64,000 nucleotides of DNA from Rhodohalobacter sp. 614A (GCF_021462415.1 NZ_JAKEDS010000003.1:648743-712742); one strand, 5' to 3'; positions 15,510 through 39,375 are shown, counted from the stretch's first letter. Notes: generated from the letters alone by a model not told the origin. Numbers and translations are program-made.

Positions 15510-16340
15510 TCAATCTTCTCTGAAAAGCGGCTCATATACGGAATCAACCTGATAATACTCGACACCAAGTTTCATCAACCTTTCAACATCTTTTCCGGCG
15601 GCCTCCCACTCTTGTTCTTCACTGAGGTGCGGCTGATGATATCTGAATACATTGATCGCGGCAACCACTTTAACCCCAAGCTGATTCGCTTTTTCAATCA
15701 TTTGCTGATCCAGATTTCCTCCAAGCTCGAACAGATGATAGAGATTGCTCACATTTTCACCCGCTACAGCCGCCCGGATAATCTCATCCAGTCCTTTGGA
15801 TAAAGAAGCTTTCCCATGGAAGTACTGCTGCGCATTTGCATCACTTAAAACAAAGGTTGATGAAAGAAGATCGTATTTCTTCAAAATCTGTTCGATCCGT
15901 TCATAAGATGATTCATCAAAATCACCTCCTTTGATATCGAGCATTAATTTTATGTTATCCTGCGCTATTTCTGCTGCTTCTTCAAACAACAACGGCCGTG
16001 ATCCGTCAAGGCGGGAGCGCAATTTTCGGATCTCATTCCATTCCATCTCGCTAACAGCACGTGAATCATTATAATACTTCTGAAATGTGGGATCATGATA
16101 GATGATGATCCGGTCATCCTTTGTCTTCCGGAGATCAATTTCGAGCATCCAGTAGCCTCTCTGAATCGCTTCCTCAATTGCAGACCGAGAATTTTCAGCG
16201 TGTTCAGCATTCACAATGCCGCCTCTGTGAGCAATCAGATTAGCCGAAAGCTCCTGCTCCCCGGTTTGCCCGTGCAAAAGCACGGGCAAAGTTCCCAGGA
16301 CAACCAGTATTAGAGGAAATAAAATATATCTGTCTAACAT
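15510..16340 (-). CDS. Exported glycerophosphodiester phosphodiesterase
   Basis: This enzyme of about 276 residues hydrolyses glycerophosphodiesters to glycerol-3-phosphate and an alcohol. Family residues are visible from the chosen start: HRGG (His38, Arg39), AENS (Glu49), EIDL (Glu67, Asp69) and the catalytic YHD (His82). A hydrophobic signal peptide ending near LLHGQ predicts export. The frame extends to 16394, but that would overlap the upstream dehydrogenase gene. The Met at 16340 leaves a 16-base gap and begins directly with the signal peptide. Its place next to inositol genes suggests glycerophosphoinositol as one possible substrate, which is an inference. Confidence 0.88.
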   Translation of the reverse strand: MLDRYILFPLILVVLGTLPVLLHGQTGEQELSANLIAHRGGIVNAEHAENSRSAIEEAIQRGYWMLEIDLRKTKDDRIIIYHDPTFQKYYNDSRAVSEMEWNEIRKLRSRLDGSRPLLFEEAAEIAQDNIKLMLDIKGGDFDESSYERIEQILKKYDLLSSTFVLSDANAQQYFHGKASLSKGLDEIIRAAVAGENVSNLYHLFELGGNLDQQMIEKANQLGVKVVAAINVFRYHQPHLSEEQEWEAAGKDVERLMKLGVEYYQVDSVYEPLFRED

Positions 16341-16356
16341 AGTCAGTTTTTGAGAT

Positions 16357-17838
16357 TTAGAATACGCGATCCCAGTCACGTATCCATCGTTCAACTACGA
16401 CTTTGGTTTGGGTATAAAACTCGACGGCATGATGTCCCTGAGCGTGCAAATCACCAAAAAAGCTTTCCTTCCAGCCACTGAATGGATAATATGCCATCGG
16501 TGCTGCCACGCCAATATTAATTCCGATATTCCCGGCATTGGCTTCATAACGGAACTGCCGCGCCGCTGCGCCACTGCTGGTAAAAAGACACGCCATATTA
16601 CCGTATGCCTGTGAATTAATCAGGGCAATGGCATCATCAACGGTATCAACATGCATCAGCCCAAAAAGCGGACCAAATATTTCCGTTTTGGCAATAGAGC
16701 TGTCCGGAGAAATATCATCTATTATCGTTGGAAAACTCCAGTTTCCACCTTCAAATTCATCGACTTTTTTACTGCGGCCGTCCACCAGGATTTTACCGCC
16801 TTCTTTTGTACCTGTTTCAATAAAACCCTCCACTCGCTGCCGACTCTCGGAGGTAATTACCGGCCCCATTTCGGTCCCCTGGTTCAGTCCGTAACCCACC
16901 TTCAGATTTGCAGCTTTTTCGGAAATAGCCTCTGTAAACGGCTTCTTTGCATCTCCGACTGTAATGGCCAGTGAGTTTGCGAGGCACCGTTGTCCGGCAC
17001 AACCAAATGCGGAATCTCCGACAATACGTGTTGTCATATTCATTTCAGCATCAGGCAAAACCACAACCATATTTTTTGCTCCGCCCTGGGCCTGAACCCG
17101 CTTGCCATGAGCCGTTCCCTTGCTGTAAATCTGCCGGGCCACACCCGAAGAACCTACAAAACTGATTGCTTTCACAGCCGGGTTTTCAAGCAACTCGTCA
17201 ACAGCGGTTTTATCACCGTTTACAAGTTGAACAACTCCTTCCGGAAGACCGACTTGATCCAGCAGTTTGAATATATATTGCGCCGACATCGGCACTTTCT
17301 CGCTGGGTTTGAGGATAAAACAGTTCCCAGATGCAACAGCATACGGCAAAAACCAAAGGGGAATCATGGCCGGGAAATTAAACGGTGTAATAGCCGTCAC
17401 AACCCCCAGTGGTTGCCGGATCATATGTTCATCAATTCCACTTGCGATATCTTCATTGTTTATTCCCTGCATCAACGTGGGCATTCCACAGGCGTTTTCC
17501 ACATTTTCAATCCCCCGGCGGATCTCCCCCACGCTTTCATTAAATGTTTTTCCGCACTCATTTGTAATCACTTTTGCCAGCTCTTCAATGTGATCTTCCA
17601 GGAGATTTTTAAAATGAAACAGGTACTGGATTCGCTTGGTAACCGGTGTCCGGCGCCACCCGTGAAATGCTTCGTCTGCCACCTCAACAGCTTTTTTAAC
17701 ATCTTCTTTTTGAGACAGACTCACAGTAGCTATCTGTTCTGCTGTTGCAGGATTCATGACCGCAAGATCTGTTCCTGATTCCGGCTTTTGCCAGCTTCCG
17801 CCTATATAATTTATAACTTGGTCTGTTGTTGATTCCAT
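16357..17838 (-). CDS. iolA: CoA-acylating methylmalonate-semialdehyde dehydrogenase (IolA/MmsA type)
   Basis: This 493-residue aldehyde dehydrogenase converts malonate or methylmalonate semialdehyde to acetyl- or propionyl-CoA, the last step of inositol degradation (also used in valine catabolism). It has the family signatures TPFNFPAMIPLWFLPYA, SFVGSSGVARQIY, GGAKN and the active-site block AGQRCLANS with nucleophile Cys285. The MmsA-type CLANS context separates it from ordinary aldehyde dehydrogenases. It is not joined to the iolB-C-D cluster at 26609-31254, being about 7 kb further downstream. It is followed by the phosphodiesterase gene. Confidence 0.9.
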   Translation of the reverse strand: MESTTDQVINYIGGSWQKPESGTDLAVMNPATAEQIATVSLSQKEDVKKAVEVADEAFHGWRRTPVTKRIQYLFHFKNLLEDHIEELAKVITNECGKTFNESVGEIRRGIENVENACGMPTLMQGINNEDIASGIDEHMIRQPLGVVTAITPFNFPAMIPLWFLPYAVASGNCFILKPSEKVPMSAQYIFKLLDQVGLPEGVVQLVNGDKTAVDELLENPAVKAISFVGSSGVARQIYSKGTAHGKRVQAQGGAKNMVVVLPDAEMNMTTRIVGDSAFGCAGQRCLANSLAITVGDAKKPFTEAISEKAANLKVGYGLNQGTEMGPVITSESRQRVEGFIETGTKEGGKILVDGRSKKVDEFEGGNWSFPTIIDDISPDSSIAKTEIFGPLFGLMHVDTVDDAIALINSQAYGNMACLFTSSGAAARQFRYEANAGNIGINIGVAAPMAYYPFSGWKESFFGDLHAQGHHAVEFYTQTKVVVERWIRDWDRVF

Positions 17839-17869
17839 TGTTTTGATTGGTTGATTCTTTATGTCTCTG

Positions 17870-18048: not shown

Positions 18049-18888
18049 CTACAGCTCTTTTACTTTAATATTTTTCCATCGCACTTCATCCCCCCACCAG
18101 GTATCCGTTCCGTGAACCTGAAGGGCAATATGTCCCTCATCACCCACCGCCTGATACATTTTTTCTTTATCGAAATCAGGACTTTTAGTGGCTGCAGCAT
18201 CAAACTTGCAGATTTTTGTTCCGTTGATCCATGTGGTGATAATAGGATATTTTCCTTCGCACCGGATTTTAAGGGTATTGTATTCATTGAGTTTCCAGGC
18301 CTTCTTCCACTCTTCTTTGGTACAAGCATATCGCAAAGGATTTTCTGCATATCCCTCATAAGGCGTAAAGGGTTTCAACTCGAGATCAACAAGTTCGTCA
18401 TTTTTAAAAATGCCATAATAACGGAATGGTTCTGTCCTCCATCCGCCGGTACTCTGCCCGTAAAGAAACCCGACAATACCGCCATCGTTCGGCTCGCTGT
18501 GATAATCCACATACACCTGATACGACTGACCATTCGGCTGAGACCGTAAAAAAACACCCGAATCACAACCCCATCCCGGTTTTACATCAATCATCATTTC
18601 AAAGTCTTTGTAGGTTTTATTCGAAAGAAGAATACCTCCGTTTCCTGATCCGGGTGGTTCCTGTTCGGCAATTATTTCCCCGTTTCTCACCGTCCATCGT
18701 GCACCGTTTTTATGCCAGCCATTTAACGATTCCCCATCAAAAAGAGAGATATATCCTTCCTTGTCTGGCATATCGGGTGCTTCTTTTACCCGATTGATTC
18801 CGTTTGCAATTGCCGGAGCGAGCCCCAAACCTGCTGTAAAAGTGGCTGAAGATTTTAGAAATTGCCGGCGGTTTATTGATTTTTTCAT
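18049..18888 (-). CDS. Tat-exported DUF1080 protein (3-keto-glycoside hydrolase-like)
   Basis: This 279-residue protein has a twin-arginine signal at its start (NRRQFLK, Arg7-Arg8, then a hydrophobic stretch ending near PAIANG). The mature domain is the DUF1080 beta-jelly-roll, with GYISLFDGESLNGWHK, WTVRNGEIIAEQEPPGSGNGG (split motif), FEMMIDVKPGWGCDSGVFLR and a C-terminal HIALQVHGTDTWWGDEVRWKN. Characterised relatives act on 3-keto-sugars or 3-keto-glycosides by hydrolysis or elimination. A matching 3-dehydrogenase is not obvious here unless the FAD protein at 1-965 serves. It lies 114 bases after the UnbV gene. Confidence 0.85.
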   Translation of the reverse strand: MKKSINRRQFLKSSATFTAGLGLAPAIANGINRVKEAPDMPDKEGYISLFDGESLNGWHKNGARWTVRNGEIIAEQEPPGSGNGGILLSNKTYKDFEMMIDVKPGWGCDSGVFLRSQPNGQSYQVYVDYHSEPNDGGIVGFLYGQSTGGWRTEPFRYYGIFKNDELVDLELKPFTPYEGYAENPLRYACTKEEWKKAWKLNEYNTLKIRCEGKYPIITTWINGTKICKFDAAATKSPDFDKEKMYQAVGDEGHIALQVHGTDTWWGDEVRWKNIKVKEL

Positions 18889-19002: not shown

Positions 19003-22000
19003 TTACTCCGGAATAACAATTCTGCTGTTTCCGCGATTGTCATAAAATGTGATGTTCTTCACTTGGTCCCGCCCGTAAATCAACAGCGACCTGGTCTTTT
19101 GAGATAGGTATCCACCCCCATCATAAAATTCTTTCTTTTCCATCCGACCGTCCTCATAGTTTATTTCTGCTGATATTTCATTTTCTCCGGCATAGAAAAC
19201 ACGTGAGTCGTTTTCATTCCGGGATTCAAACATCAACAACTCACTGTTATTCCGGGCCGAAAGAAAGAGTCTTTGATTTTGGGGACCTGCCAGTTCTGTG
19301 AGAGCTTTTGCATCTCCCGAAACATAAAAACCCGTTTCAGGAAACAAGGACGGATCAAATTCACCCTCGCCATTTCCTTTTAACAAAAGTCCATTGAACG
19401 CATCATACCGGCCAGTAAACATCTCGGTTGAATAAAAGTTACCAGTCATCAGGATATCGGGGAATCCATCGCCATCATAATCTCCGGCAAGCAAACCGAA
19501 AACGGGTGCGATTTGAGCTTCCAATGGGAGTGATTTGACTTCCATTGATGCCCCCTTCCTGTTCAGAATCAGGCTGGTTTGAAAAGTATCTGATGAATAA
19601 GTTTGATTACTGCTCAGATGGTCACTTGACAAAAGATCAGTCAGCGCTGCCTTTCCGTAATGCTCATACGATGTAAATCTGCTCTCCAATACCGGCATCT
19701 GCATTAACAGATCGTCTTTAAGGTGAACCGGTTTTCTTACACCATTCAGCATTTGTGAAATCACAGGGTCGGTCAGTCCGTCCCTGTTAAAATCGCCATA
19801 ATGAATCTGCACGGATCCATTTTCACGGTTCTGAAGGGTCGAATTCAACCCGAGATTTCCGGCTGCATAATCCATATATCCGTCCTGATCAAAATCAGCC
19901 GCAACAATACTGTTCCACCATCCAACTGTTTCTGAAAGCCCCAGGTCTTCGGTAACATTTTCAAGCATTCCATTACGATTTTCGAAAACCGTAATGGGCA
20001 TCCATTCACCTACAATGATTAAATCCGAGTGAAAATCGTTATTGAAATCGGTCCAGATTGCGGAAGAGACCAACCCGATATTTTTCAAGCCGGGAGCCAC
20101 TTTTTCTGTGATATTGACGAATCTTCCATCCTGGTATTTCAGGATATAACTTTCCGGAGTTAGCGGATATTGATTGGGCACAACCCGCGAACCAACAAAC
20201 AATTCTTTTGAACCGTCCTGATCAAAATCAGCCGCCGCAACAATGGATGTGCTGGATCTCATTTCCGGGAGAATGTCTGTCTGGCGGGTAAAATTTCCAT
20301 TGCCGTCTCCAAAATAGACTCGATCCTGATAGTACTCTGACCCGGCCCGGAATTCGCTTCCCCCGCTGGCTATATACAAATCCTGATGTCCGTCGCGGTT
20401 GATATCCAGGAAAAGTGCTCCCATATCTTTTTCGTAATGGTCACCCGTTTCTAAAATTTTGGACTCAAATGTTCCGTCTGGGTTCTGAAGGAATAACTCT
20501 CCCGGTTGTTGGAAAGCTCCTCCGATAAAAAAGTCTTCAAGGCCATCCCCGTTTGCGTCACCCACGGCAATGCCAGGACCTGATTTTGAAAATTTATGCG
20601 GGAGCAACGGCTGAACTTTGAAATCGGAAAAATCTTTTTCCTGGTGACTGAAAGTGGCTTTTTTTTCAGCGGTTACATCATGAAAAATCCGGCTTTTGTT
20701 AGAATCGGAATGGTTCTCCTGTTTCCACTCTTGTTTGGGATTCCCCTCTTCCTGCCAGGAAATTTCAATCTTTTGATTGGCCGCAAGATCTCTCACCGTC
20801 TGTTTCACATCATCCGGCCAGATGACAACAACCGAATCAACCCTGGTTTTTTCCCCCAGCCCGAAATGAACCGGAGTTACCATTGCCGATAAATATCCAC
20901 GGGAAACAGCATATTCGTGATAATAGGTTTCACCTTCTGCATAAACAATTACATGAGAACCTATCCCCTGCCTGTTTTGATCTGGCCCGTTAAGTTTTAT
21001 GCTGAGATAATTTTTGTTTGTTTGATCAGACACATTTCGATAAACAAATGCAGCCTCTTGAGTATTATTGGTGACAAAGTCCAAACGCCCGTCGTTATCA
21101 AGATCAACATAAACAGCACCGGTGGAAAAGGACGGCTGTCGGAATCCCCAATCATCAGAGGTATCAGAAAATGTCAGGTCTCCGTTGTTTCGGAAGATAT
21201 AATTTGTTTCATACGATCCTTCCAGGTTTTGCATTTCCCGGAAAAGTGTTTCTCTTGTCTGCCGATTGAAACCGGATCTTCTCAACAAGTTCATTTTATA
21301 TTCCGAGAAATCACTGTCGGCCGGGTTTCGGGGAAGCCCGTTTGTTATAGCCAGATCCTGTAATCCATCGTTATCAAAATCAGCGAATAGAGCACTCCAG
21401 CTCCAGTCGGTACTTGCAACACCTGCCAAAAGTCCGATTTCACTAAATACCGGAGTCCCATCCGGAAGACTCCCCGTATTTAATTGAAGCACATTCCTCT
21501 TCACCTGTGGAGAATAGCCCATTTGTATTTCAGACACGAACCGTTCATACCCGGTTGTTTGATACATTCTTTTCACACGCTCATCATCTTCGGGAAGCAT
21601 GTCCACAACGATTATGTCCATCAAGCCATCGTTATTGATATCACCAAAATCCGTGCCCATTGAAGAATAACTTTGATGCCTGAAATACTCTGATGCGCGA
21701 TCCGTGAATGTACCATCTCCGTTATTCACATATACCGCATCATTCGGGAGAAAATCATTTGCTGCATGAATATCCGGCAAGCCGTCCCGGTTGATGTCGA
21801 ATACATTCACTCCCAGGCCATATCCTTCCAGTAAAATTCCTGCCTCTTCAGACACATTGCTAAATGTGCCGTCTCCGTTATTTTTATACAATCTGTCGGT
21901 ATTGAGATGCTCTCCGCGGACCTGTTTGGGGCGGATTACATTTGGCGGTACATCTCCCTGGCCATTTGTGAGGAGATACAAATCGAGCAGGCCATTTTTA

Positions 22001-22569
22001 TTGTAATCAAAGAAAACAGCCTGTGTTGTAAAACCGGTATCGGCAATTCCATACTGTTCGGCTTGCTCTGAAAATGTTTGGTTGCCATTGTTTATGTAAA
22101 GCTCATTCGCTCTTCTCGATGGATCAGCGTAAGGTCCGCCAAAACTTATATACAGATCCAAAAACCCATCCGCATTAATATCCATCATCGTAACGCCACT
22201 GGCCCATTTTTCTTCGGTGTTGATTCCTGATGTTTCAGTGATATCGCTGAACTTGAAATCTCCTTCATTTATATAGATCCGGCTTTTCCCCATATTGGAT
22301 GCAAAAAAGAGATCCGTCAAACCATCATTATTAATATCTCCGGCAGCAACGCCGGCTCCGTTGTACAACATTTCAAAGGTTACGATATTTAAATCCATGC
22401 TTTCTTCAACCTTATTTTGAAACTCAATTCCAGTCTGTGACGGAGGAAGCAACTCAAACAGAGATGCTTTTCTATCTGTTTTTGTACAACCAAACAGCAG
22501 AATAAACAGAATAAGCAACGCTCCATGTGGCTGTAATGCATCCTTACAAGGTGATTGAAAACATCTCAT
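19003..22569 (-). CDS. Large FG-GAP/VCBS and ASPIC-UnbV repeat lipoprotein 1
   Basis: This 1188-residue surface or periplasmic lipoprotein (LFGC lipobox near residue 28) carries many FG-GAP/VCBS repeats. Each has a calcium-loop motif such as DINNDGLTDLFF, DINADGFLDLYI or DFDNDGLQDLAI, so a beta-propeller fold is expected. An ASPIC/UnbV domain lies at about residues 500-600 (QGIGSHVIVYAEG, then HFGLGEKTRVDSVVVIWPDD), and a second repeat block follows. The length is normal for the CRTAC1-like family in this phylum. Its function is unknown. Carbohydrate or protein binding at the surface is the usual guess. A related gene is at 57739-61116. It lies 35 bases after the quinoprotein gene and is probably co-transcribed. 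Confidence 0.85.
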   Translation of the reverse strand: MRCFQSPCKDALQPHGALLILFILLFGCTKTDRKASLFELLPPSQTGIEFQNKVEESMDLNIVTFEMLYNGAGVAAGDINNDGLTDLFFASNMGKSRIYINEGDFKFSDITETSGINTEEKWASGVTMMDINADGFLDLYISFGGPYADPSRRANELYINNGNQTFSEQAEQYGIADTGFTTQAVFFDYNKNGLLDLYLLTNGQGDVPPNVIRPKQVRGEHLNTDRLYKNNGDGTFSNVSEEAGILLEGYGLGVNVFDINRDGLPDIHAANDFLPNDAVYVNNGDGTFTDRASEYFRHQSYSSMGTDFGDINNDGLMDIIVVDMLPEDDERVKRMYQTTGYERFVSEIQMGYSPQVKRNVLQLNTGSLPDGTPVFSEIGLLAGVASTDWSWSALFADFDNDGLQDLAITNGLPRNPADSDFSEYKMNLLRRSGFNRQTRETLFREMQNLEGSYETNYIFRNNGDLTFSDTSDDWGFRQPSFSTGAVYVDLDNDGRLDFVTNNTQEAAFVYRNVSDQTNKNYLSIKLNGPDQNRQGIGSHVIVYAEGETYYHEYAVSRGYLSAMVTPVHFGLGEKTRVDSVVVIWPDDVKQTVRDLAANQKIEISWQEEGNPKQEWKQENHSDSNKSRIFHDVTAEKKATFSHQEKDFSDFKVQPLLPHKFSKSGPGIAVGDANGDGLEDFFIGGAFQQPGELFLQNPDGTFESKILETGDHYEKDMGALFLDINRDGHQDLYIASGGSEFRAGSEYYQDRVYFGDGNGNFTRQTDILPEMRSSTSIVAAADFDQDGSKELFVGSRVVPNQYPLTPESYILKYQDGRFVNITEKVAPGLKNIGLVSSAIWTDFNNDFHSDLIIVGEWMPITVFENRNGMLENVTEDLGLSETVGWWNSIVAADFDQDGYMDYAAGNLGLNSTLQNRENGSVQIHYGDFNRDGLTDPVISQMLNGVRKPVHLKDDLLMQMPVLESRFTSYEHYGKAALTDLLSSDHLSSNQTYSSDTFQTSLILNRKGASMEVKSLPLEAQIAPVFGLLAGDYDGDGFPDILMTGNFYSTEMFTGRYDAFNGLLLKGNGEGEFDPSLFPETGFYVSGDAKALTELAGPQNQRLFLSARNNSELLMFESRNENDSRVFYAGENEISAEINYEDGRMEKKEFYDGGGYLSQKTRSLLIYGRDQVKNITFYDNRGNSRIVIPE

Positions 22570-22604
22570 TATGTATGTGGCAGATTATTCGATTAACTTA
22601 CATG

Positions 22605-24773
22605 TCAATCAGGTAGTGCAAATACCATAAATAAGTCACTGGTAGGTGTGGATAACTGTCCGCTGTGACCTTCCGAGCAATATTTACAATTTCCACCAAC
22701 ACCGAGCGCTATATACTGCTTACCATCAATTTCATAGGTACTTGGTGTTGCAAAGGCACCGGTTTCCAACTCTGTTTCCCATAAAATTTCACCGGTATCT
22801 TTATCAAACGCCCGAAACATTCTGTCGCGGGTAGCGGCAATAAAAACGAGACCGCCGGCCGTGGTGATGGGACCTCCGAGATTTTGTGTTCCTGTTGGCG
22901 GAATGCCTCTGGCTGTCAGCTCTTTATATTCACCGAGCGGAACCTGCCATACGATTTCGCCTTTATTCAGATCAATCGCATTCAACGTTCCCCATGGCGG
23001 TTTGATGGCCGGGTATTCTTCATCATCCCTGAACTGGTAATAGTTTTGATGGATATATGGTGACATGACTGCTCCTGTACCTCCGCCGTCTTCTGCAATT
23101 TCCCTTTCCTTCTCAAACAGGTATGCTAAAAGCGCATTTAAATCATTGCCCACAACAGAAGCCATCGCCGGCATTCCTCCTTTGCCCTGTTGTATTACTG
23201 ATGTCACTTCTTCCTCGCTAAGCCTGTCTTTAAGCCCCACAAGACTTGGTGCCGGAGCCACTCCCTGCCTGTCAATACCATGACAGGCCGCACATGTGGC
23301 TGTATATACATATTCTCCATACGAAGACATATTTGCTTTGAGACCTTCCGTCTCTACCATGGAAATAACGTATGGTATATTATTTCCATTGATGTAAAGC
23401 ATTCCGGCGGAAGGATCTACGGAGGCACCTCCCCACCATGCGCCACCGTGTAAACCGGGCAGAAAAATGGTTCCTTCCCCGGTTCCCGGCGGATCATATA
23501 ATCCCCTGGTGCTGAATTTTTTGAATTCTTCTCGCGCCCACGCATTTTTTTCAGGAGAGAGATCTGTAAGATCATCTTCTGTTAATCCTTGCCTGGTAAA
23601 TGGTTCCGGTTTTACCGGTATGGGTTGTGTTGGCCATGACTCTTCGCCTATCAATGATGATTGAGGAACGGGCATCTCTTCGATGGGAAATAAAGATTCG
23701 CCCGTTTCTCTGTTAAGTACATAAACCATTCCTGTTTTTGTAACCTGGGCAACAGCATCGATATATTCTCCGTCGTGATAAACAGTGAGAAGGTTAGGAT
23801 GAGTTGGGATGTCATAGTCCCAGATATCATGCCGGACGGTTTGAAAATCCCAGATGCGTTCTCCATTTGATGCATCCAAAGCTATAATTGATGTACTGAA
23901 GCGGTTCGAGCCGATCCGGTCGCCTCCATAAAAATGATATGATGGAGCTCCGGTGGATACATATACAACTCCCCGTTCATCATCCACGGCCATGCCTCCC
24001 CAATTGTTCGCTCCCCCGGAAGTTTCCCAGGCATTTTCCGGCCATGTTTCATAGCCTACTTCACCGGGGTGTGGAATTGTGTGAAAAATCCATTCGAGAT
24101 CGCCGGTCCTTACATTGTATGCCCGTATGTGGCCCGGTGCATATTGCTGAGGGCCCTCCGGAACCCGGCTCCCGAAAATAATTAGATCGTTATATAAAAT
24201 ACCCGGAGATGTTGCACTTACGGATAGCTCATTCCAGGGTTCTCTGTCGAGGCCTTTTCGTAAATCTATTCTTCCATCTTCACCAAAGTCTTCTATTTGT
24301 GTACCCGTTTGGGCGTTCAGAGCATACAAAAAACTGCCCCTTGTAAATAGAATCCTGTCTCCACTTTCATCTTTCCAGTAGGTTACTCCACGGTTTTGAT
24401 GCTCGGGGCCATCCGTATCAAATACCCATATTTCCTCACCGGTTTTTGCATCCAAAGCAGCAATTTTCAATGATGGTGAGCTGATGTACATGATCCCGTT
24501 CACCACAATTGGATTGGCCTGAATCGTTGAGCGCTCGGTGTTGTCGCCGGTTCTGTATTCCCAGACAACTTCCAGATCTTTTACATTAGACTTATCAATC
24601 TGGTCAAGAGAGGAATATTTGGAATTGCCTTTATCGCCGCTGGTCACTTCCCAGTCTACATAGTCTACCGGATTGATTGGAATTGAGGAATCTTCATTTC
24701 TTTCCCCACAAGAGGAGAGTACAGAACAAATTAAAAACAGAGGTAAAAAAAAACGGATAATATCAGGTTTCAT
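22605..24773 (-). CDS. PQQ-dependent dehydrogenase lipoprotein with inserted cytochrome c domain
   Basis: This quinoprotein alcohol/sugar dehydrogenase has about 722 residues from the chosen start. Beta-propeller W-motif blades (DAKTGEEIWVFDTD, NVRTGDLEWIFHTI, DASNGERIWDFQT, DKDTGEILWETELETGAF) surround PQQ. A haem-binding CAACH at about residues 494-498 lies in a cytochrome c domain of about 90 residues inserted before the last blades. The frame opens at 24839, but the Met at 24773 begins a clean lipoprotein signal (VLSSC), so it is preferred. It would oxidise a sugar or polyol in the periplasm and pass electrons through its own haem. The substrate is unknown. Inositol is possible given the neighbours. 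Confidence 0.87.
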   Translation of the reverse strand: MKPDIIRFFLPLFLICSVLSSCGERNEDSSIPINPVDYVDWEVTSGDKGNSKYSSLDQIDKSNVKDLEVVWEYRTGDNTERSTIQANPIVVNGIMYISSPSLKIAALDAKTGEEIWVFDTDGPEHQNRGVTYWKDESGDRILFTRGSFLYALNAQTGTQIEDFGEDGRIDLRKGLDREPWNELSVSATSPGILYNDLIIFGSRVPEGPQQYAPGHIRAYNVRTGDLEWIFHTIPHPGEVGYETWPENAWETSGGANNWGGMAVDDERGVVYVSTGAPSYHFYGGDRIGSNRFSTSIIALDASNGERIWDFQTVRHDIWDYDIPTHPNLLTVYHDGEYIDAVAQVTKTGMVYVLNRETGESLFPIEEMPVPQSSLIGEESWPTQPIPVKPEPFTRQGLTEDDLTDLSPEKNAWAREEFKKFSTRGLYDPPGTGEGTIFLPGLHGGAWWGGASVDPSAGMLYINGNNIPYVISMVETEGLKANMSSYGEYVYTATCAACHGIDRQGVAPAPSLVGLKDRLSEEEVTSVIQQGKGGMPAMASVVGNDLNALLAYLFEKEREIAEDGGGTGAVMSPYIHQNYYQFRDDEEYPAIKPPWGTLNAIDLNKGEIVWQVPLGEYKELTARGIPPTGTQNLGGPITTAGGLVFIAATRDRMFRAFDKDTGEILWETELETGAFATPSTYEIDGKQYIALGVGGNCKYCSEGHSGQLSTPTSDLFMVFALPD

Positions 24774-24910
24774 TTTATACAAATCGTAGTTCTGATTTTT
24801 TGAATTATTGCACGACATACATCTTTTAGGCAGACACAAATTTTCGGCACACCATGGTGCTTGTTTTCTTCATTTTGATAACGGATGTCCTGGTATTATT
24901 AAGAACAACT

Positions 24911-30486: not shown

Positions 30487-31254
30487 CTACAAAAATTCGG
30501 GTTGAGTATTCACGCCCGCCCAGGATCTTTCCATTGAGTCATCCAGTGTAGCCATAATCCACACAAAATTGATCGGATAACCGGGAACCGCCACATTGGG
30601 ATGATAACCACGCTTGATAACTACAGCGTCATTTTCATAAACAGGCCCCAAATATTCTGGGGTTTCCAGGTCTTCATAAACCAATTGAATACCAAAAGCC
30701 GGAGGCGGCATTTCGATATAGAGATATATTTCTTCTTTGGTATCTGTATGCTCATGAGGTGGCCAGCTCGTCCAATTCCCGTCTTTACTAAAGATTAATC
30801 CGCCCAGTAGCCGTTTTGCAGGAAGGTTCTTATCGATCAGCCGATGAATTTTTCTCTCGCAGCCTTCTTGTCCGAGAATCTCGGTTAATTCGGGATCGTT
30901 ATTTATCTCTTCGAAGGTTGCCAAAACCGGTTCTCCATTTCCGGTTGTCAGAGCGGTGGCTTCTACAATATCCGCTTCTGTATCTGTAGAGATTTTACCT
31001 TTGTGTCCCGGGGGAATGTAGAGTGTATCATACGGATGTAATGTCCAGGATTGTCCATCCAGCTCAACGGTAGCCAACCCCTGTAAACAAATCAGTGCGG
31101 CTTCAAAGTCCGGGTTATTGTATTCTGTTTGAGTTTGCTTCCCATTCAAAATAATCCTGGCATAACCCAATGATTCCAATTCTGAATTTTCAGGTGTGAT
31201 AACCCAGTTTCGTCCTGTTTTACCTGCTGTGTCTCGGAATATTTTTTTACTCAT
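30487..31254 (-). CDS. iolB: 5-deoxy-glucuronate isomerase (IolB)
   Basis: This 255-residue double-cupin enzyme isomerises 5-deoxy-glucuronate to 2-deoxy-5-keto-gluconate. Its metal-binding cupin motif is WPPHEHTDTKEEIYLYIEMP, and the second part holds AVVIKRGYHPNVAVPGYPINF, both typical of IolB. The length is slightly below the usual 270. It lies 82 bases after the SDR gene and 7 bases before iolC, near the head of the inositol set. Confidence 0.93.
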   Translation of the reverse strand: MSKKIFRDTAGKTGRNWVITPENSELESLGYARIILNGKQTQTEYNNPDFEAALICLQGLATVELDGQSWTLHPYDTLYIPPGHKGKISTDTEADIVEATALTTGNGEPVLATFEEINNDPELTEILGQEGCERKIHRLIDKNLPAKRLLGGLIFSKDGNWTSWPPHEHTDTKEEIYLYIEMPPPAFGIQLVYEDLETPEYLGPVYENDAVVIKRGYHPNVAVPGYPINFVWIMATLDDSMERSWAGVNTQPEFL

Positions 31255-31336: not shown

Positions 31337-32104
31337 TCATATGCTCTTCCGGGAAACGATTGTTGCTGATGACTGAGCTACCGGAAAAACAATAGTATCG
31401 AGTATATTTACATGCGGCGGGCGGTTTGCCATAAACAGAATTATTTCAGCGATATCCATACCTGTTAGCGGTTGGATATTTTCGTAAACAGCTGCCGCTT
31501 TTTCTTCGTCTCCGTGAAATCTTACTTTACTGAATTCGGTTTCTACCAATCCCGGGGCTACAGAACTCACCCGGATGTTTGTACCGGTGAGATCTATTTT
31601 TGCAGCTTGTGTAATTGCTCTTACAGCATATTTGGTGGCACAGTAAACCGAACCTCCGGGATACGCTTCATACCCGGCAATAGACCCGACGTTGATGATA
31701 TGACCGTTATTCTGCTTCTTCATTCGTTCAGACACAAATCGTGTCATTGAAAGAAGCCCTTTAATATTTGTATCGATCATAGCATCCCAGTCGGCAAAAT
31801 CGGCATCGTCAATCTTACCTTTTCCGGCAGCAAGCCCTGCATTGTTCAACAGGATATCAATGGGGTGTTGAATGGAATCCACACAGGCTTTACATGCTTC
31901 CCTGTCACGGATATCAAAACAGAATGTCAACACCTCTGTGTTATGCTGTAACTGAAGCTCCTCTTTCAATGTTTTCAAGCGATCATCCCGGCGGCCGGTT
32001 ATGATCAGATTGGCCTGATTTTGGGCAAAAAGTGTAGCTGATGCTTTTCCGATTCCTGATGTTGCGCCTGTAATGAGAACCCACTTATTGGCTAAACGAT
32101 TCAA
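31337..32104 (-). CDS. Short-chain dehydrogenase/reductase (YdfG-like)
   Basis: This 255-residue cytoplasmic SDR has the NAD(P) motif GATSGIG (residues 13-19), NNAG (87-90) and the catalytic set Ser141, Tyr154 and Lys158 in YCATK. ITGRRDDRLKTL suggests NADP preference through the basic residues. The closest characterised type is the YdfG 3-hydroxy-acid dehydrogenase. It lies between susD3 and iolB, so it may oxidise or reduce an inositol-derived compound. The substrate is not determined. Confidence 0.88.
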   Translation of the reverse strand: MNRLANKWVLITGATSGIGKASATLFAQNQANLIITGRRDDRLKTLKEELQLQHNTEVLTFCFDIRDREACKACVDSIQHPIDILLNNAGLAAGKGKIDDADFADWDAMIDTNIKGLLSMTRFVSERMKKQNNGHIINVGSIAGYEAYPGGSVYCATKYAVRAITQAAKIDLTGTNIRVSSVAPGLVETEFSKVRFHGDEEKAAAVYENIQPLTGMDIAEIILFMANRPPHVNILDTIVFPVAQSSATIVSRKSI

Positions 32105-32271: not shown

Positions 32272-33801
32272 TTAATGACCGGGGTTTTGTTCTAGTACAC
32301 CTCCACTGACATCAATCTGGTTTTGTGGAATTGCATAGAAATAATGTTTGGGTCTTATGAAAAGCCGTGGCGGATCATAGGGACCTCTGTCTTCACCATA
32401 AATTTCTGTAATATCCACAATGCCGGCCCTGTCCCAACGCATCAGGTCAAAATGGCGGCTCCCTTCGCCGGCCAGTTCAACTCTTCGTTCATGGATAATA
32501 TCTTCCATGGTTGCATTGGTAACCGGAGGCATTCCGGATCTTGCGCGGACAACATTCAACTCTGCATCCCCATTACCACCGGATCTGATTTTTGCTTCTG
32601 AGACATACAAATACACCTCGGCCGATCTTAACATGGGGAGATTCATATTCAAGTCCAGACCTCCTTCCGATCTCCAGGCAGCCCATTTTTCAAAGTGATA
32701 GCCAGTTGTAGGAGATAAATCTGCTGTGTATTCTGTTGGTCCCCTGTCTCCACCCAAATCAAAAACATCCCCGGGCATCATGATGGAATAATCCAGCCTT
32801 GGATCCCCCTCTTCAAACTCCTCGATAAGATTTGGAAGCGGAGCCTGGAAATCCCAACCTCCCCAGGGTCTTGGAGTTGTATAAATTGTATTTGATTGTG
32901 TTTGCCAGCCTTCGGCCGATCCTATGGTAAACAGGATTTCAGGATTGTATTGAGTTTCAACTTTAAAGTTATCATCAAAACTCTCTGTTAATGGGTACGG
33001 ACCATTTATGACATGGTCTCCTGCATCAATAGCATCCTGGAATCTTTCTTCATACATGTACAGTGTTGCTAAATAACCCCAGGCGGCACCGCTATGGGCC
33101 CGGCCTATATCACTGCCGCTATGTTGTTCAGGAAGAAGCTCTGCAGCCTTTATAAAATCAGATTCAATTTGGGCATAGGTATCATCGAGTGAAGCTCTTG
33201 GTTTATTGAAATTATCATCAATAACGTCCTGTTCAAGAATCAACGGAACACCGCCAAAAAGCTTTGCAAGTGTCCAGTATGCGAATCCCCTTAAAAAATA
33301 GGCTTCACCCAAAACCCTGTTTTTTAAAGTTTGATCCATTTCTATATCGGGCACATTAATCAAAACTCCATTGGCTCTTTGAATGATCTCGTATTTTGCC
33401 TGCCAAGTTGAGTTCAGTTTTCCTAAAGAAGCATCGTAAGTAAAATTCTCGATACTGGCATGATCACCATGATCGCCCGCCCGGTACTGATCATCATCCG
33501 GGATGTTAATCAACGTCATTATTGTATGTCCCCATATTGACGTCAGGGGGGCATATACGGCATTAATTGCGGCGTCGGCATCATTTGCATTTCGCCAGAA
33601 ATTATCTGTGGTTGTCTGCCCGTAGGGAGTTGTATCCAGCACGCTCTCTTCACAACTGCTAAAGAACAGAGCCGTTCCAAGGATCATCAAAAAGAATAGC
33701 AATGACGGAGCTGAAGAAGAAGCTTTCAATTTTAATTTTTTAGCTATTAAATCCATTGTTTTTGTACTTAGTGGTTTCAATTGGGTTAAATATTTCTTCA
33801 T
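32272..33801 (-). CDS. SusD/RagB family outer-membrane lipoprotein (unit 3)
   Basis: This 509-residue protein has the lipoprotein signal LGTALFFSSC, unusually preceded by about 40 residues. The Met at residue 16 (MDLIAKKLKL) may be the true start. SusD features follow: TTPYGQTTTDNFWRNANDAD, FLRGFAYWTLAKLFGGVPLI, ERRVELAGEGSRHFDLMRWD and a final LEQNPGH. It lies 7 bases after susC3. Genes for inositol breakdown follow on the same strand, so an inositol-containing ligand is plausible. Confidence 0.92.
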   Translation of the reverse strand: MKKYLTQLKPLSTKTMDLIAKKLKLKASSSAPSLLFFLMILGTALFFSSCEESVLDTTPYGQTTTDNFWRNANDADAAINAVYAPLTSIWGHTIMTLINIPDDDQYRAGDHGDHASIENFTYDASLGKLNSTWQAKYEIIQRANGVLINVPDIEMDQTLKNRVLGEAYFLRGFAYWTLAKLFGGVPLILEQDVIDDNFNKPRASLDDTYAQIESDFIKAAELLPEQHSGSDIGRAHSGAAWGYLATLYMYEERFQDAIDAGDHVINGPYPLTESFDDNFKVETQYNPEILFTIGSAEGWQTQSNTIYTTPRPWGGWDFQAPLPNLIEEFEEGDPRLDYSIMMPGDVFDLGGDRGPTEYTADLSPTTGYHFEKWAAWRSEGGLDLNMNLPMLRSAEVYLYVSEAKIRSGGNGDAELNVVRARSGMPPVTNATMEDIIHERRVELAGEGSRHFDLMRWDRAGIVDITEIYGEDRGPYDPPRLFIRPKHYFYAIPQNQIDVSGGVLEQNPGH

Positions 33802-33808
33802 CCTTCAT

Positions 33809-36800
33809 TTAGAAATCTATTGAAATGCCGAACGTCCATGAACGTGGCTGAGGATACTGAGCGAAATCCACATTTCTTTGCAGATTACCATCGGTGTAAC
33901 CCAATTCCGGATCAATACCTGAATAAGGAGTGAGTGTAAACACATTTACCCCTGTTGCATATATTCTAATGCCGCTGGTTCCAACAAAGCTGTTTACGTT
34001 CGGGGGTAATTCATAACCCAGGGTCAGTGTTTTTAACCTGAAGTAATTTCCATTCTCGATAAACAAATCAGAAGAACGGTGATTCAGATTATCGCGAAGC
34101 GTTGTCATCCGTGGTATCGAATTACTGGTACCTTCGCCATGCCATCTGTTTTGAACTTCCTCGTACATATTGAATGGATACGTCGGATCGAGTCCCTGCA
34201 TACGGTCAGCATTAAAAATTTCAACGCCAGCAGCTCCCGCAAAATGCAGGTCGAGACTTAAGTTTTTAAATCCGAACGAAGTACTTAATCCATAAGTAAC
34301 ATCAGGATGGGGGCTTCCTAAAATTGTTCGGTCTTCACTCGTAATTCGTCGATCACCGTTTAAGTCGAGAAACCGAACATCACCGGGCTGTATATTTGTT
34401 TTACGAGAATCATTGGCAATATTGGGATCGCTATTGATTTCCGCCTGATTTTGGTACAGACCATCGGTTTTCCAACCATAAAAAGTTGCAATCGGATGAC
34501 CTTCGAATGTCCGTGCGAGTTCTTCATTCGGCCGGCCATATGTTCGTGAGCTAAGAAAATCATCGTTCAAATTGGTAACTTCGTTTCTGATGATCGATGC
34601 ATTTCCAGTTACATTAAAATTCAGTTGTCCGACATTACCAGTATAACCGACTTCAATCTCGACACCTTTATTCCTGATTTCTCCGACGTTGATATCCGGT
34701 ACAGTTGCAGTACCAAGTGTTCCCAAAATTGGCGGGGCGAGTAATACATCTTTAGAATCGCGTACAAAGTATTCTATCGTTGCATTTACCCTGTCATTTA
34801 ACAACCTGGTATGGAGACCAAAGTTTACCATCTCAACAGTTTCCCAAGAAATATCCCGGTTAGGAATGCGTGTTTGGCTGATGCCTCTTATCTGAGCACC
34901 TTCAAAACTGTATTGTGCATTTTGGCTGTACAGACCAAGGAACTGATGACGTGCAATAGACTGATTTCCAGATCTTCCCCAACCTACGGTCAACCTCATA
35001 TTACTGATGAAAGATTTGAGCGGATTGAAAAAGCTTTCTTCCGATATTCTCCATCCACCGGAAAAAGCAGGAAATATTCCCCACCGATTATCGGATGAAA
35101 ACCGTGAAGAACCATCATAGCGTATGCTTCCGGTCAATAAATATTTATCATTATATGAGTAGTTGACTCTTCCCAGGTATGAGAGAAGTCCGTCTTCCCA
35201 TTTTGCGCCATTCGCGAGATAAACCGTATTCCCGGCATCCAATACTCGTTGAGCCTCAGACTCATCAGCGAAATCCTGGCGACTGGCCAAAAAAGATTCT
35301 CCATTGGATTTTTCCAGAATAATACCGGCAAGCCCCTCAATATTATGACTCTGGCTGATGAATTTGTTAAAGTTTAAAAAGAGTTCAGAAAGTATATTTG
35401 TGCTTTCTCCGTACTCTCTTTCCAAAGAATTGCGGGACCTGGCCCTGATCTGATCATCAATAATAATATTGTAGGTATAAAAATCATTTAGCTGATAATC
35501 CATACCAATATTACCTCTTAATGACACACCATCTAATAAATCTAACTCCGCCTCAACGTTTCCTAATACTCTGCGCCGATTGCTGTTTGCGTCTGAATCT
35601 TCTTCCACAGTAAAAATCGGATTGTTGATGTCACCGAACTCTCCACTTATCTGAGACGAACTGTAGCTTCCATCCTCATATTGTACCGGCAATCCCGGGT
35701 GAAACCGAATAGCACTCCACAATACACCTGTTTGGGCCGATTGTGTATTTAATGTATTTCCGGATGTTTTTGAAAGTGACAGTGTTTGGCGGATCGTTAA
35801 CCGATCAGAAACGTTATGATTTGAATTAATCTTCATACTATACCGATCGAAATAAGATGACTTCATCATTCCTTGCTCATCTGTATAGTTTCCGGACACA
35901 AAATATGAGGACGTTGAATTTCCTCCCTGGAGCGAAAGGTTATAATCCTGAATGGTTCCCACACCCAGTAGTTCTTCCTGCCAGTTTGTTTGCTGTGTCT
36001 GATACGCCGGATCTTCCCAAATTGGATTGACCGGTATTCCGTCGTTCACATATCTTTCCCGCTTCAGTTCGGCCAGGGTTGGTGCATCAAGTACATCAAT
36101 TGTGCTTATGGGATTTGAAAACCCGATTGACGAATTAAAACGAACTTGTAACTCCTGGTTCAGCTGCCCTCTTTTTGTTGTTACAATAATAACTCCATTT
36201 GCCGCCCTGTTTCCATAAATAGCGGCTGACGAAGCATCTTTCAACACATCAATCGACTCTACATTATCGGAACTGATGTTATTAAGACTTCTCATATCAG
36301 ATGGCATTCCGTCAATCACAATCAGCGGATCCGCATTATTTACTGTTCCGGTTCCACGTATCCGGATCGCCCCGGAAGCTCCCGGATCGCCACCGCTCCG
36401 CACAATTTCCACCCCGGAAGCCCTTCCCTGAAGAGCCGTGGAAAGATCGGTTACCGGCTGATCATCAAGCTGATCTGCCCGGACAGATGAGATGGATCCC
36501 GTAACCCGCTCCTGCCGTTGCATTCCGTATCCAACAACAACAACATCATCCAAAAGCTCGGTTGCCCGCTCTAGCTGAATGGTTAATTCTGTTCTACCCT
36601 CAAGTTCAATGGTTTGCTCTACATACCCAATAGAAGTGAGGAGAAGAGTATTCAGGTCATCCGGCACATTTAGCTCAAATATCCCTTCAATATCTGTTGT
36701 GGTACCGATGATTCCGCCTGACGTTTCTTCACTTCCAACCACAACCACATTCACGCCGGGAAGTGGAGATCCATCAATGGCATCTACAACCGTACCACTA

Positions 36801-37255
36801 ACCACTCGTTCAAAAAAAACCGGTTCCTGAGAGTCTTCTGCTACTTTGATCAACAGATACCCTTCCCTGGAAAACTGATAGTCCAGGCCGGTATCTACAA
36901 GAACCTGATCGAGGGCCGAGCTAACACCAATACTTTCAGATTGAAGAGTAATATGTTTGTCCGGGATAATATCCCCGTGGAATGTGAGCTTCATTCCGGT
37001 AACCGAGGCTATTTCGTGCAGCGCTTCTACTAACGGTAATTCAACCAGATCAAGACGAATTCTTTTTTCAAACTCCGTCTTATAAAACATATCCTGAAGA
37101 TCAGCATATGTAATTTTTTGATATTCGACCTTTGAATAATGTTCATTTGTCTGATATGCCGACAAAGAAGCAGGCAGAAGTCCCACCAGCACTACAGCAA
37201 TTGAGCACAAAAGTATCTTACTCAATACTTTATAAATCTGTATTCCATTTACCAT
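33809..37255 (-). CDS. SusC/RagA TonB-dependent transporter with STN domain (unit 3)
   Basis: This 1148-residue protein has a signal peptide (to about LPASLSA) and an STN domain at about residues 60-125 (LPLVEALHEIASVTGMKLTF). A regulatory beta domain follows (SGTVVDAIDGSPLPGVNVVV), then a plug with DDVVVVGYGMQ and VLKDASSAAIYGNRAANGVI, then a beta-barrel. It is the import channel of unit 3. The gap to fecR3 is 103 bases and nothing is seen in it. Confidence 0.95.
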   Translation of the reverse strand: MVNGIQIYKVLSKILLCSIAVVLVGLLPASLSAYQTNEHYSKVEYQKITYADLQDMFYKTEFEKRIRLDLVELPLVEALHEIASVTGMKLTFHGDIIPDKHITLQSESIGVSSALDQVLVDTGLDYQFSREGYLLIKVAEDSQEPVFFERVVSGTVVDAIDGSPLPGVNVVVVGSEETSGGIIGTTTDIEGIFELNVPDDLNTLLLTSIGYVEQTIELEGRTELTIQLERATELLDDVVVVGYGMQRQERVTGSISSVRADQLDDQPVTDLSTALQGRASGVEIVRSGGDPGASGAIRIRGTGTVNNADPLIVIDGMPSDMRSLNNISSDNVESIDVLKDASSAAIYGNRAANGVIIVTTKRGQLNQELQVRFNSSIGFSNPISTIDVLDAPTLAELKRERYVNDGIPVNPIWEDPAYQTQQTNWQEELLGVGTIQDYNLSLQGGNSTSSYFVSGNYTDEQGMMKSSYFDRYSMKINSNHNVSDRLTIRQTLSLSKTSGNTLNTQSAQTGVLWSAIRFHPGLPVQYEDGSYSSSQISGEFGDINNPIFTVEEDSDANSNRRRVLGNVEAELDLLDGVSLRGNIGMDYQLNDFYTYNIIIDDQIRARSRNSLEREYGESTNILSELFLNFNKFISQSHNIEGLAGIILEKSNGESFLASRQDFADESEAQRVLDAGNTVYLANGAKWEDGLLSYLGRVNYSYNDKYLLTGSIRYDGSSRFSSDNRWGIFPAFSGGWRISEESFFNPLKSFISNMRLTVGWGRSGNQSIARHQFLGLYSQNAQYSFEGAQIRGISQTRIPNRDISWETVEMVNFGLHTRLLNDRVNATIEYFVRDSKDVLLAPPILGTLGTATVPDINVGEIRNKGVEIEVGYTGNVGQLNFNVTGNASIIRNEVTNLNDDFLSSRTYGRPNEELARTFEGHPIATFYGWKTDGLYQNQAEINSDPNIANDSRKTNIQPGDVRFLDLNGDRRITSEDRTILGSPHPDVTYGLSTSFGFKNLSLDLHFAGAAGVEIFNADRMQGLDPTYPFNMYEEVQNRWHGEGTSNSIPRMTTLRDNLNHRSSDLFIENGNYFRLKTLTLGYELPPNVNSFVGTSGIRIYATGVNVFTLTPYSGIDPELGYTDGNLQRNVDFAQYPQPRSWTFGISIDF

Positions 37256-37358
37256 TTTTTTTATTTGTTAGGTTGACATTTTGTTTATAAAAAGCGCTAC
37301 CAATCACGATTCATAACAGCCGCTCCTGACACTTAACTTGTACCAAACTCCTATTAGG

Positions 37359-38426
37359 TTAATAGAAGTTTATTTCTCTCTCGTTGCGTGTGTACCCTAT
37401 CTCCAGTGAAGCGGCGATGACAGAAAGAATTTCATCTAACTCGGCATACTGAAAGGTACTTGTGAAAGGCACATCCATCATATCTTCATCGTCTAGAAAA
37501 ATATTAACATCAAACCGACGCTCGATATCTCTGAATACTTTATAAAGCGGAACACTATCGAAATGCATACCTCCACTGGTCCAGATCATATGGTATCTGG
37601 GATCGACTTTAACGGCGGGGGATAAACCTTCTCCCCGAATCAACTCTGTTTTAAAACCTTTGGTAAGAATAACTTCAGGCTGGTCTTCAGATTCAGTAAC
37701 TATTGACTTCACAGAAACCTTGCCCTCGCGTACTACAACTTCCATTTCGGAATCTTCTTCCCAGCCCCGCACATTAAATTCTGTTCCTAAAACCTGAACC
37801 TCAGCTTCATGAGAATGAACAATGAACGGCTGATCCGGATCGTGTGCCACCTTGAAGAAAGCCTCCCCATCCAGGTAAACTTCACGTTTCGATCCACGAA
37901 ATTCTTTTGGAAAGCGAATGGAACTGGCTGAATTTAAAACCACTTCTGTACCGTCAGAAAAGCGAACTTTTGCTTTTTCTCCACGACTGGTTACCATTTC
38001 CTGCATTTGGTAAAACATCGATTTTTCAGCTATTTCTTCCGACTTCAGCTCCAGTTGAGTCAGGTAATAAGAAAATGAACCGGCAATAAACATGACCAAA
38101 ACAACAGCTGCTGCACGCAGTACGTACATCATTGTTTTTGAATCTGAATAAACTGCAGACTGCTTCCTCGCACTCCTCTCTCTCTTTTCAGACACAACTC
38201 GCAGAGGCTTCTGCTTTTCTAACCTGAATTGCTGCCACGCATGCTCTACATCAACGGAGAAATTTTCTTCAGGAGTCATTCTCCAGATTTCTTCAATCTC
38301 TTCTACAAGCTTCCTGTTGTCGGCATTCTGATTCATCCATTCTTCCAGGCTTCGTCTTTCCTCGAAAGTGGCGTTTCCGGTAACATACCGCTGAATCAAA
38401 ACCCATGTTTTTTTCTGTAAATCCAA
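37359..38426 (-). CDS. FecR-family anti-sigma factor (unit 3)
   Basis: This 355-residue regulator has an N-terminal cytoplasmic helical part (FEERRSLEEWMNQNADNRKL), a transmembrane segment at about 101-122, a FecR domain (SRGEKAKVRFSDGTEVVLNS) and a DUF4974-like tail (VPLYKVFRDIERRFDVNIFL). It is expected to restrain sigma factor 3 and to receive the signal from the SusC3 STN domain. A long 355-base gap separates it from sigma gene 3. Confidence 0.9.
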   Translation of the reverse strand: MDLQKKTWVLIQRYVTGNATFEERRSLEEWMNQNADNRKLVEEIEEIWRMTPEENFSVDVEHAWQQFRLEKQKPLRVVSEKRERSARKQSAVYSDSKTMMYVLRAAAVVLVMFIAGSFSYYLTQLELKSEEIAEKSMFYQMQEMVTSRGEKAKVRFSDGTEVVLNSASSIRFPKEFRGSKREVYLDGEAFFKVAHDPDQPFIVHSHEAEVQVLGTEFNVRGWEEDSEMEVVVREGKVSVKSIVTESEDQPEVILTKGFKTELIRGEGLSPAVKVDPRYHMIWTSGGMHFDSVPLYKVFRDIERRFDVNIFLDDEDMMDVPFTSTFQYAELDEILSVIAASLEIGYTRNEREINFY

Positions 38427-38781
38427 TGGTTATCTATCGAAGTTTTGGTTTCTGTTCTAACCTATGCCTTCAAACCCAGCTCAATTATTTAAGCTTGTTT
38501 GAATATCTGTTTTGGATGTATCTGTGTATAAAACAACTGTAAATCCCGACACCCTGTAATTTTTTTGAAAAAAATTTGAGTCTGTAGGAAATATATCCCC
38601 AAAAGTGCCCTCACAAAGCAAATAAGAACATTTCTTTCTTATCGGGGAGAGAAAATTACTTCTTCTTTTGTCTGGATATTGAAGACAGGTACTCTTTTAT
38701 AACGATTTATCCAGTTCAGAATAAGGCAGGTTTTTTAAACGGTTCGCTATAAACATCCGGATCAAAAAAAGAAGATCCGGG
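38427..38781 (-). other. 355-base gap between sigma gene 3 and fecR3
   Basis: No gene is supported here. It contains the shared A/T-tract element (38527-38577). A perfect 7-bp hairpin (CCGGATC at 38757-38763 with GATCCGG at 38774-38780) begins one base after the sigma stop. On the minus strand its loop is T-rich but no T run follows, so it is only a weak terminator or attenuator candidate. Confidence 0.5.
38527..38577 (-). promoter_or_regulatory. Shared A/T-tract element upstream of fecR3
   Basis: On the minus strand an A/T tract interrupted by one C (38559-38577) is followed by ACAGGGTGTCGGG. About 29 bases after the tract comes TTGTTTTATA (38527-38536). The layout matches the elements before fecR1, fecR2 and fecR4. 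It sits about 100 bases from the fecR3 start, farther than in the other units. Confidence 0.45.
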
Positions 38782-39375
38782 TCAGAGTATGCGTAATGCA
38801 ACAAGAAAAAAGGGCATCAGATATGCTAACCGATTGCGAAGGATTTTAAGAGTTCGTGTCATCTGAGATTCAACGGTTTTAACCGATACTCCCATCACTT
38901 CGGCAATTTCTTCATAGGTAAGTCCGTCGTATCTATGAAGTTTATACGTCATACGGCTCCTTTCAGGTAACTCTTCGACAGCTTGTTTAATCGCTTGCCT
39001 TATCTGCTCCTCACGGGTTTTATCTTTGAATTCCGGCATAATGATTACCTCTTTGGTTGACATCCATTCAGGGTCGTATTTGTTTTCCACTCTCTTGTGT
39101 TTCAAATAATTCAGGCTCTCATTCCGAACAATTTTATAAAAGTAAGATTTCACAGAACCTTTCAAATCCCACTCTTCACCATTCTCCCAACAATCTGCAA
39201 AAAGTTCCTGAACCAGTTCTTCGGCAACCGCTTTTGTTTTCAGATAGCGCCATGCAAATCTGACGAGTTGCGCATAAAATCGTTTGTATAAAAATTCAAA
39301 CGCAATCTCATCATCTTCGAAAACAAAAGCCTCCCAAAGCTCTTCATCACTAACATGTTGGAAGTGATTTTTCAT
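38782..39375 (-). CDS. ECF (sigma-70 family) sigma factor (unit 3)
   Basis: This 197-residue ECF sigma factor has region 2 (FEFLYKRFYAQLVRFAWRYL, then VAEELVQELFADCWENGEEW) and region 4 (LHRYDGLTYEEIAEVMGVS, then VKTVESQMTRTL). It would direct transcription of the fecR3-susCD3 genes and perhaps the inositol genes behind them. It is the first gene after the cytochrome gene, 310 bases away, and has its own candidate promoter. Confidence 0.93.
   Translation of the reverse strand: MKNHFQHVSDEELWEAFVFEDDEIAFEFLYKRFYAQLVRFAWRYLKTKAVAEELVQELFADCWENGEEWDLKGSVKSYFYKIVRNESLNYLKHKRVENKYDPEWMSTKEVIIMPEFKDKTREEQIRQAIKQAVEELPERSRMTYKLHRYDGLTYEEIAEVMGVSVKTVESQMTRTLKILRNRLAYLMPFFLVALRIL

Follow-up and report, generated by a model that had tools for sequence, protein, structure and literature searches.

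A stretch of 64,000 nucleotides from Rhodohalobacter sp. 614A (GCF_021462415.1 NZ_JAKEDS010000003.1:648743-712742; the window, with positions counted from its first letter) was found to carry, at 15510-39375, a locus in which a SusC/SusD-type outer-membrane receptor pair (SusCD3) is encoded together with enzymes of the iol pathway of inositol catabolism. It is fairly probable that this locus serves to take up and catabolise a compound that contains inositol, and the findings suggest feeding on such a molecule via an unusual entry route. The ligand would be an inositol phosphodiester or an inositol glycoside. In the sequence of events that we infer, an extracytoplasmic function (ECF) sigma factor/FecR pair would sense the ligand via SusC3, and the compound would cross the outer membrane through SusCD3. 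An exported glycerophosphodiester phosphodiesterase-like protein (GDPD), a pyrroloquinoline quinone (PQQ) dehydrogenase (PQQDH) and a DUF1080 protein may then trim and oxidise it in the periplasm, after which the ring product would be imported by a major facilitator superfamily (MFS) carrier and converted by IolD, IolB, IolC, an aldolase and IolA to dihydroxyacetone phosphate and acetyl-CoA.

All genes of the locus are on the minus strand, separated for the most part by short spacing, and each was matched by a family profile; every gene listed in a preliminary description of this DNA was recovered at its position. The order is ECF sigma, FecR, SusC3, SusD3, a short-chain dehydrogenase/reductase (SDR), IolB, IolC, aldolase, IolD and MFS, followed by PQQDH, a 3.5-kb FG-GAP/UnbV gene at 19003-22569 that the preliminary description had overlooked, DUF1080, IolA and GDPD. 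A strong intrinsic terminator (24953-24917, minus strand) consisting of a 17-bp hairpin (-21.7 kcal/mol, z -3.9) followed by TTTTTC lies between MFS and PQQDH. Because of this hairpin and T-run, the run of same-strand genes described earlier probably forms two transcription units split at the terminator. Comparable hairpins with T-runs were present 3' of SusD3 in the related genomes G036 and G092.

The inositol link was examined in 28 genomes of the same genus, 11 of them iol-positive including the window genome (G000), and in a wider 394-genome sample of the phylum. It is supported by the recurrent grouping of SusCD3, PQQDH, DUF1080, IolA and GDPD in relatives. Four same-genus relatives have both SusCD3 and the iolA-GDPD unit, contiguous in two and split between contigs in two, with iolBCD apart. 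The order in G036 is sigma-FecR-MFS-SusC3-SusD3 and then PQQDH-UnbV-EEP-DUF1080-IolA-GDPD-phosphodiesterases (EEP, an endonuclease/exonuclease/phosphatase family protein); G092 has the same module on a contig that stops before the regulators. In both genomes iolG, iolB, iolC, the aldolase gene and iolD are located elsewhere with an RbsABC-type transporter, and iolE is on the opposite strand. The module of G142 resembles these two and is split over contigs. That of G060 is also split, with an SDR gene following SusD3 and with SSS-iolG (SSS, a sodium:solute symporter), iolC-aldolase-iolD and iolE/iolA on other contigs. G129 has a single array without SusCD3, in the order MFS-PQQDH-EEP-DUF1080-IolA-GDPD-phosphodiesterase-SSS-IolG-IolB-IolC-aldolase-IolD. 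Orthologues of SusD3 were found in five genomes, each iol-positive. Since the same parts recur together in relatives, the arrangement of the locus is not due to chance.

The position of IolA provided a second line of support. IolA was present in 10 of the 28 same-genus genomes, each iol-positive, and the copy at 16357..17838 is the only one in the window genome. The sole IolA copy of G036, G092, G142 and G129 is the one inside the module, and in G052 the sole copy lies beside PF01663-type phosphodiesterases, while the other iol genes are at a separate locus in all of these genomes except G129. In all five relatives the sole IolA thus sits in a phosphodiesterase-bearing cluster, so that the module carries an enzyme needed by the iol pathway of those cells. 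Seven of the 28 genomes have GDPD, and every one of them belongs to the iol-positive group of 11 (Fisher p=2.8e-4, with no correction for kinship); this confinement also supports the link. Elsewhere in the phylum sample, GDPD was found in two genomes only, at 31-32% identity; these two also encode, at other loci, the two homologues of SusD3 that are closest among those from outside the genus. Relatives also encode further phosphoesterases, of the EEP, PF01663 and calcineurin-like types and in one relative PafA and PhoA, within the module or close to iol genes, and these point in the same direction. The EEP phosphatase of the relatives was rejected as an inositol-specific enzyme, as two homologues are encoded at other places in the window genome, one of them in a GH20/sulfatase cluster. 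Two open reading frames near iol genes (L003:2699-4351, 550 aa, and L076:5912-7405, 497 aa) had no Pfam match; the product of the second weakly resembles PHP-type phosphoesterases.

Additional support came from a distant homologue of the receptor. SusD3 belongs to a clade of nine in the SusD tree, and this clade includes the pair of G297 (SusC3 45%, SusD3 41%), which adjoins a myo-inositol oxygenase gene and then, beyond a LacI-type gene, an UnbV gene. At L177:5503-6384, in a distantly related genome from the phylum, a myo-inositol oxygenase gene lies immediately upstream of a SusC/SusD pair.

Several observations weigh against this interpretation. The sister of the G297 pair in the SusD tree, that of G474, adjoins NAGLU and GH35, so that the SusD3 clade is not inositol-specific. 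G324 and G427 carry SusCD3-UnbV with no inositol gene nearby. The placement of iolBCD between SDR and MFS was not found in any other genome examined, and direct SusCD-iolBCD linkage was seen in the window genome only; G060 was discarded as a second case, since its SusD3-SDR pair is at a contig end and its iol genes are with SSS, IolG and IolE on other contigs. Finally, there is a real gap in the pathway, as no recognisable IolG or IolE was found. The earlier proposal of phosphoinositide or inositol-glycan uptake is partly supported. Evidence that was not available to it, namely the linkage in relatives, the GDPD pattern, the sole IolA in phosphodiesterase-bearing clusters, the additional phosphoesterases and the myo-inositol oxygenase, favors the inositol connection; the specific ligand is no more than plausible in view of the G474 neighbourhood and of the direct linkage in a single genome.

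The canonical iol pathway proceeds through IolG-IolE-IolD-IolB-IolC-aldolase-IolA. Neither IolG nor IolE has a copy within 15510-39375. In the window genome, a member of the Balneolaceae with 4.69 Mb in 10 contigs and 99.3% completeness, the best IolG score was 156 bits against a cut-off of 355, with no match at 1e-40 to IolG of the genus, and the best IolE score was 54 bits against a cut-off of 290, with no match at 1e-10 to IolE of the genus. Both enzymes were present in the other 10 iol-positive same-genus genomes, leaving the window genome alone without recognisable copies. The protein most similar to IolG has its matches among various Gfo/Idh enzymes and sits on another contig, and the best IolE-like protein was rejected as a replacement IolE because it matches the 2-hydroxy-3-keto-glucal hydratase 8ro4. 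This absence went unnoticed when SusCD3 was first connected to an inositol pathway, and it changes how the pathway could work. Either the gap is filled by undetected enzymes, or material enters at the IolD step by way of PQQDH and DUF1080. PQQDH may substitute for IolG, and DUF1080 or a divergent enzyme may substitute for IolE.

A more specific bypass is conceivable, although we regard it as doubtful: PQQDH would oxidise a still-substituted inositol in the periplasm and DUF1080 would beta-eliminate the substituent to give the IolD substrate, making IolG and IolE unneeded. Such an oxidise-then-eliminate entry is chemically conceivable because PQQDH keeps its WDYD and heme motifs and DUF1080 proteins have been implicated in 3-ketoglycoside cleavage (PMC9007349). 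By bookkeeping around the ring, the correct 3D enantiomer results when the substituent is on C3, C6 or C2 of 1D-myo-inositol. It does not result for the C1 phosphodiester of phosphatidylinositol, where hydrolysis would have to precede, and conversion of the phosphatidylinositol head group by oxidation/elimination in one step was rejected because its stereochemistry is wrong. The absence of IolG and IolE clearly predicts, in a form open to test, that the textbook pathway is entered by another route here.

In the downstream unit, PQQDH (22605..24839, minus strand; PF01011, PF13442) is a predicted exported quinoprotein with an inserted cytochrome c domain; it matches TIGR03074 (glucose/quinate/shikimate family) below the cut-off and retains the WDYD motif and the heme CAACH motif. 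The FG-GAP/UnbV-ASPIC lipoprotein-like protein (19003..22569, minus strand; 1,188 aa; PF13517, PF07593) is encoded by a gene that is linked with SusCD3 homologues also in G036, G092, G324, G427 and G297. The DUF1080 protein (18049..18888, minus strand; PF06439 and PDB homologues) has a Tat-like signal, with a TAT_signal match slightly under the cut-off, and its orthologues in the module of relatives are 63-80% identical. No classical glycoside hydrolase, the enzyme type expected beside SusCD in a polysaccharide utilisation locus, was found in 15510-39375; the earlier claim that no glycoside hydrolase is present was overstated, since DUF1080/PF06439 is a 3-keto-disaccharide hydrolase family. 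IolA (16357..17838, minus strand), a CoA-acylating (methyl)malonate-semialdehyde dehydrogenase, scored 566 bits with TIGR01722 (cut-off 448.5). GDPD (15510..16394, minus strand) is a predicted exported protein with a signal-peptide-like N-terminus, PF03009 and GDPD homologues in PDB. Its alignment retains the HR, EN, ExD and HD motifs, only the distant G324 sequence being without the Asn of EN, and the second metal motif has Asp in place of the usual Glu in 9 of 9 aligned sequences. Judged by these motifs, GDPD is probably a metal-dependent phosphodiesterase. A single-sequence AlphaFold model of GDPD had a pLDDT of 40 and was unusable.

In the upstream unit, IolD (trihydroxycyclohexane-1,2-dione hydrolase; 26609..28471, minus strand) scored 902 bits with TIGR04377 (cut-off 715) and IolC (5-dehydro-2-deoxygluconokinase; 29460..30479, minus strand) 396 bits with TIGR04382 (cut-off 300), so that both, like IolA, exceed curated cut-offs. 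IolB (5-deoxy-glucuronate isomerase; 30487..31254, minus strand; PF04962, KduI/IolB) reached 105 bits with TIGR04378 (cut-off 205); it is collinear with, and 63-72% identical to, the iolB products of the complete iol clusters of relatives. The class I aldolase (28528..29463, minus strand; PF22649) resembles the solved Cgl0159 (PDB 3fok, E=1e-54). A Cgl0159-like gene sits between iolC and iolD in each same-genus iol cluster read, and the enzyme probably acts in the pathway as its 2-deoxy-5-keto-gluconate-6-phosphate aldolase. The MFS inner-membrane transporter (24983..26557, minus strand; PF07690) has orthologues before PQQDH in G129 (88%) and between FecR3 and SusC3 in G036 (71%). The SDR (31337..32104, minus strand; PF00106) came closest, among NCBIfam models, to NF007829 YdfG (3-hydroxy acid/3-hydroxypropionate dehydrogenase; 229 bits, below the cut-off of 411), and an orthologue fragment (62%) follows SusD3 in G060.

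The receptor and its regulators precede these genes on the minus strand. The ECF sigma factor Sig3 (38782..39375; PF08281/PF04542) has orthologues at 60-69% that precede FecR3/SusC3 in G036 and G060, and it is followed by the FecR-type anti-sigma factor FecR3 (37359..38426; PF04773, PF16344), the TonB-dependent transporter SusC3 (33809..37255; PF07715, PF13715, PF00593) and the surface ligand-binding lipoprotein SusD3 (32272..33801; PF07980, PF14322). The N-terminal extension of SusC3, read by eye and without a profile match, looks like a signalling (STN) domain. Near the SusCD3 homologue of G427, one 1269-aa frame (L174:479-4288) contains a SusD-like domain and then an alkaline phosphatase domain, a possible SusD-phosphatase fusion.

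Two further sigma-FecR-SusCD-like sets lie at 1069-15217 of the window. An additional sigma/FecR/SusCD unit at 42776-56727 has four sulfatases (42776-44746, 44876-46303, 46321-48057 and 48167-49630) and probably serves a sulfated glycan. A second UnbV-like protein, approximately 40% identical to the UnbV of relatives, is encoded at 57739-61116, adjoining KDPG-aldolase, PfkB kinase and SGL genes (61304-63967).

Four other explanations were weighed against acquisition of an inositol compound. The locus could serve a glycoside, with SusCD3, UnbV, PQQDH and DUF1080 using a 3-keto route and with iolBCD moved in by rearrangement and functionally unconnected. The DUF1080 family of 3-ketoglycoside hydrolases (PMC9007349), the glycan hydrolases adjoining the G474 and G427 homologues, the separate 2-hydroxy-3-keto-glucal hydratase of the window genome and the confinement of the direct linkage to one genome favor this explanation. 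We nevertheless consider it unlikely: the position of the sole IolA of G036, G092, G142 and G129 within the same module, and the collinearity of the G129 module with iolGBCD in the absence of SusCD3, tie the module to inositol independently of the rearrangement in the window. Phosphate scavenging, in which a Pus-type SusCD system induced by phosphate starvation gathers phosphodiesters and the inositol ring is burned as a by-product, has a precedent in the Pus clusters of Flavobacterium with their phosphodiesterases (PMC8115612), and it would agree with the GDPD, EEP and PF01663 enzymes of relatives and with PafA and PhoA beside iol in one of them. However, the window has a ligand-sensing ECF sigma/FecR pair, carbon-catabolic enzymes and only one phosphodiesterase in the locus, among whose genes no phosphate transporter was identified, and this alternative appears distinctly improbable.

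Free myo-inositol as the substrate is a very unlikely alternative. Quinoprotein inositol dehydrogenases are known from acetic acid bacteria, in which they oxidise inositol to inosose in the periplasm; PQQDH, which falls in the broad TIGR03074 family, could act likewise, with an unrecognised dehydratase completing the conversion and SusCD3 having a different ligand. This would leave GDPD, DUF1080 and SusCD3 unexplained, and the relatives that bear PQQDH also retain IolG and IolE for free inositol. A decaying pathway that has lost IolG, IolE and an inositol importer would fit G000 being alone in this loss among 11 iol-positive genomes, but it is scarcely credible, given that the remaining iol genes are all intact and well conserved and belong to a unit of closely spaced genes that has regulators of its own and a clean terminator.

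The locus shares features with three known systems. As in the canonical iol pathway, IolD, IolC, IolA, an IolB-like protein and an aldolase are encoded adjacent or nearby, and in relatives the set is complete and accompanied by an importer of the RbsABC or SSS type. In contrast, the window genome is without recognisable IolG and IolE, the aldolase is of the Cgl0159 type and not IolJ or DUF2090, and the uptake genes are SusCD and MFS. As in the Flavobacterium Pus systems, in which PusCD occurs with phosphodiesterases (PMC8115612), SusC and SusD homologues are adjacent, and exported phosphodiesterase genes (GDPD in the window; GDPD, EEP and PF01663 in relatives), not classical carbohydrate-active enzymes, lie beside them. 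This likeness is strongest in the module of relatives; the window locus differs in its connection with a pathway of carbon catabolism and in its ECF sigma/FecR pair. The periplasmic 3-ketoglycoside pathway combines a LacABC-type oxidase with DUF1080 (PMC9007349). A predicted exported oxidoreductase likewise lies near the DUF1080 protein here, but it is of another type, a PQQ quinoprotein that carries a cytochrome c domain, and no LacABC, GMC or Gfo/Idh enzyme accompanies DUF1080 in the locus.

In the open-access literature, covered mostly as titles and abstracts, no report of such a locus came up, whether for SusCD or SusD with inositol, for SusD with myo-inositol oxygenase or for inositol in Balneolaceae. 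We judge the joining of a Pus-like SusCD system to the iol pathway to be a new variation on known systems. Glycans are the main known substrates of SusCD systems, with organic phosphorus a more recent addition. If true, the joining of a SusCD pair to inositol catabolism would extend these systems to a further substrate class and would point to a function for the conserved quinoprotein-DUF1080-GDPD module. As eukaryotic membranes are rich in inositol phosphodiesters and inositol glycans, it would also bear on the bacterial recycling of algal and plant lipids.

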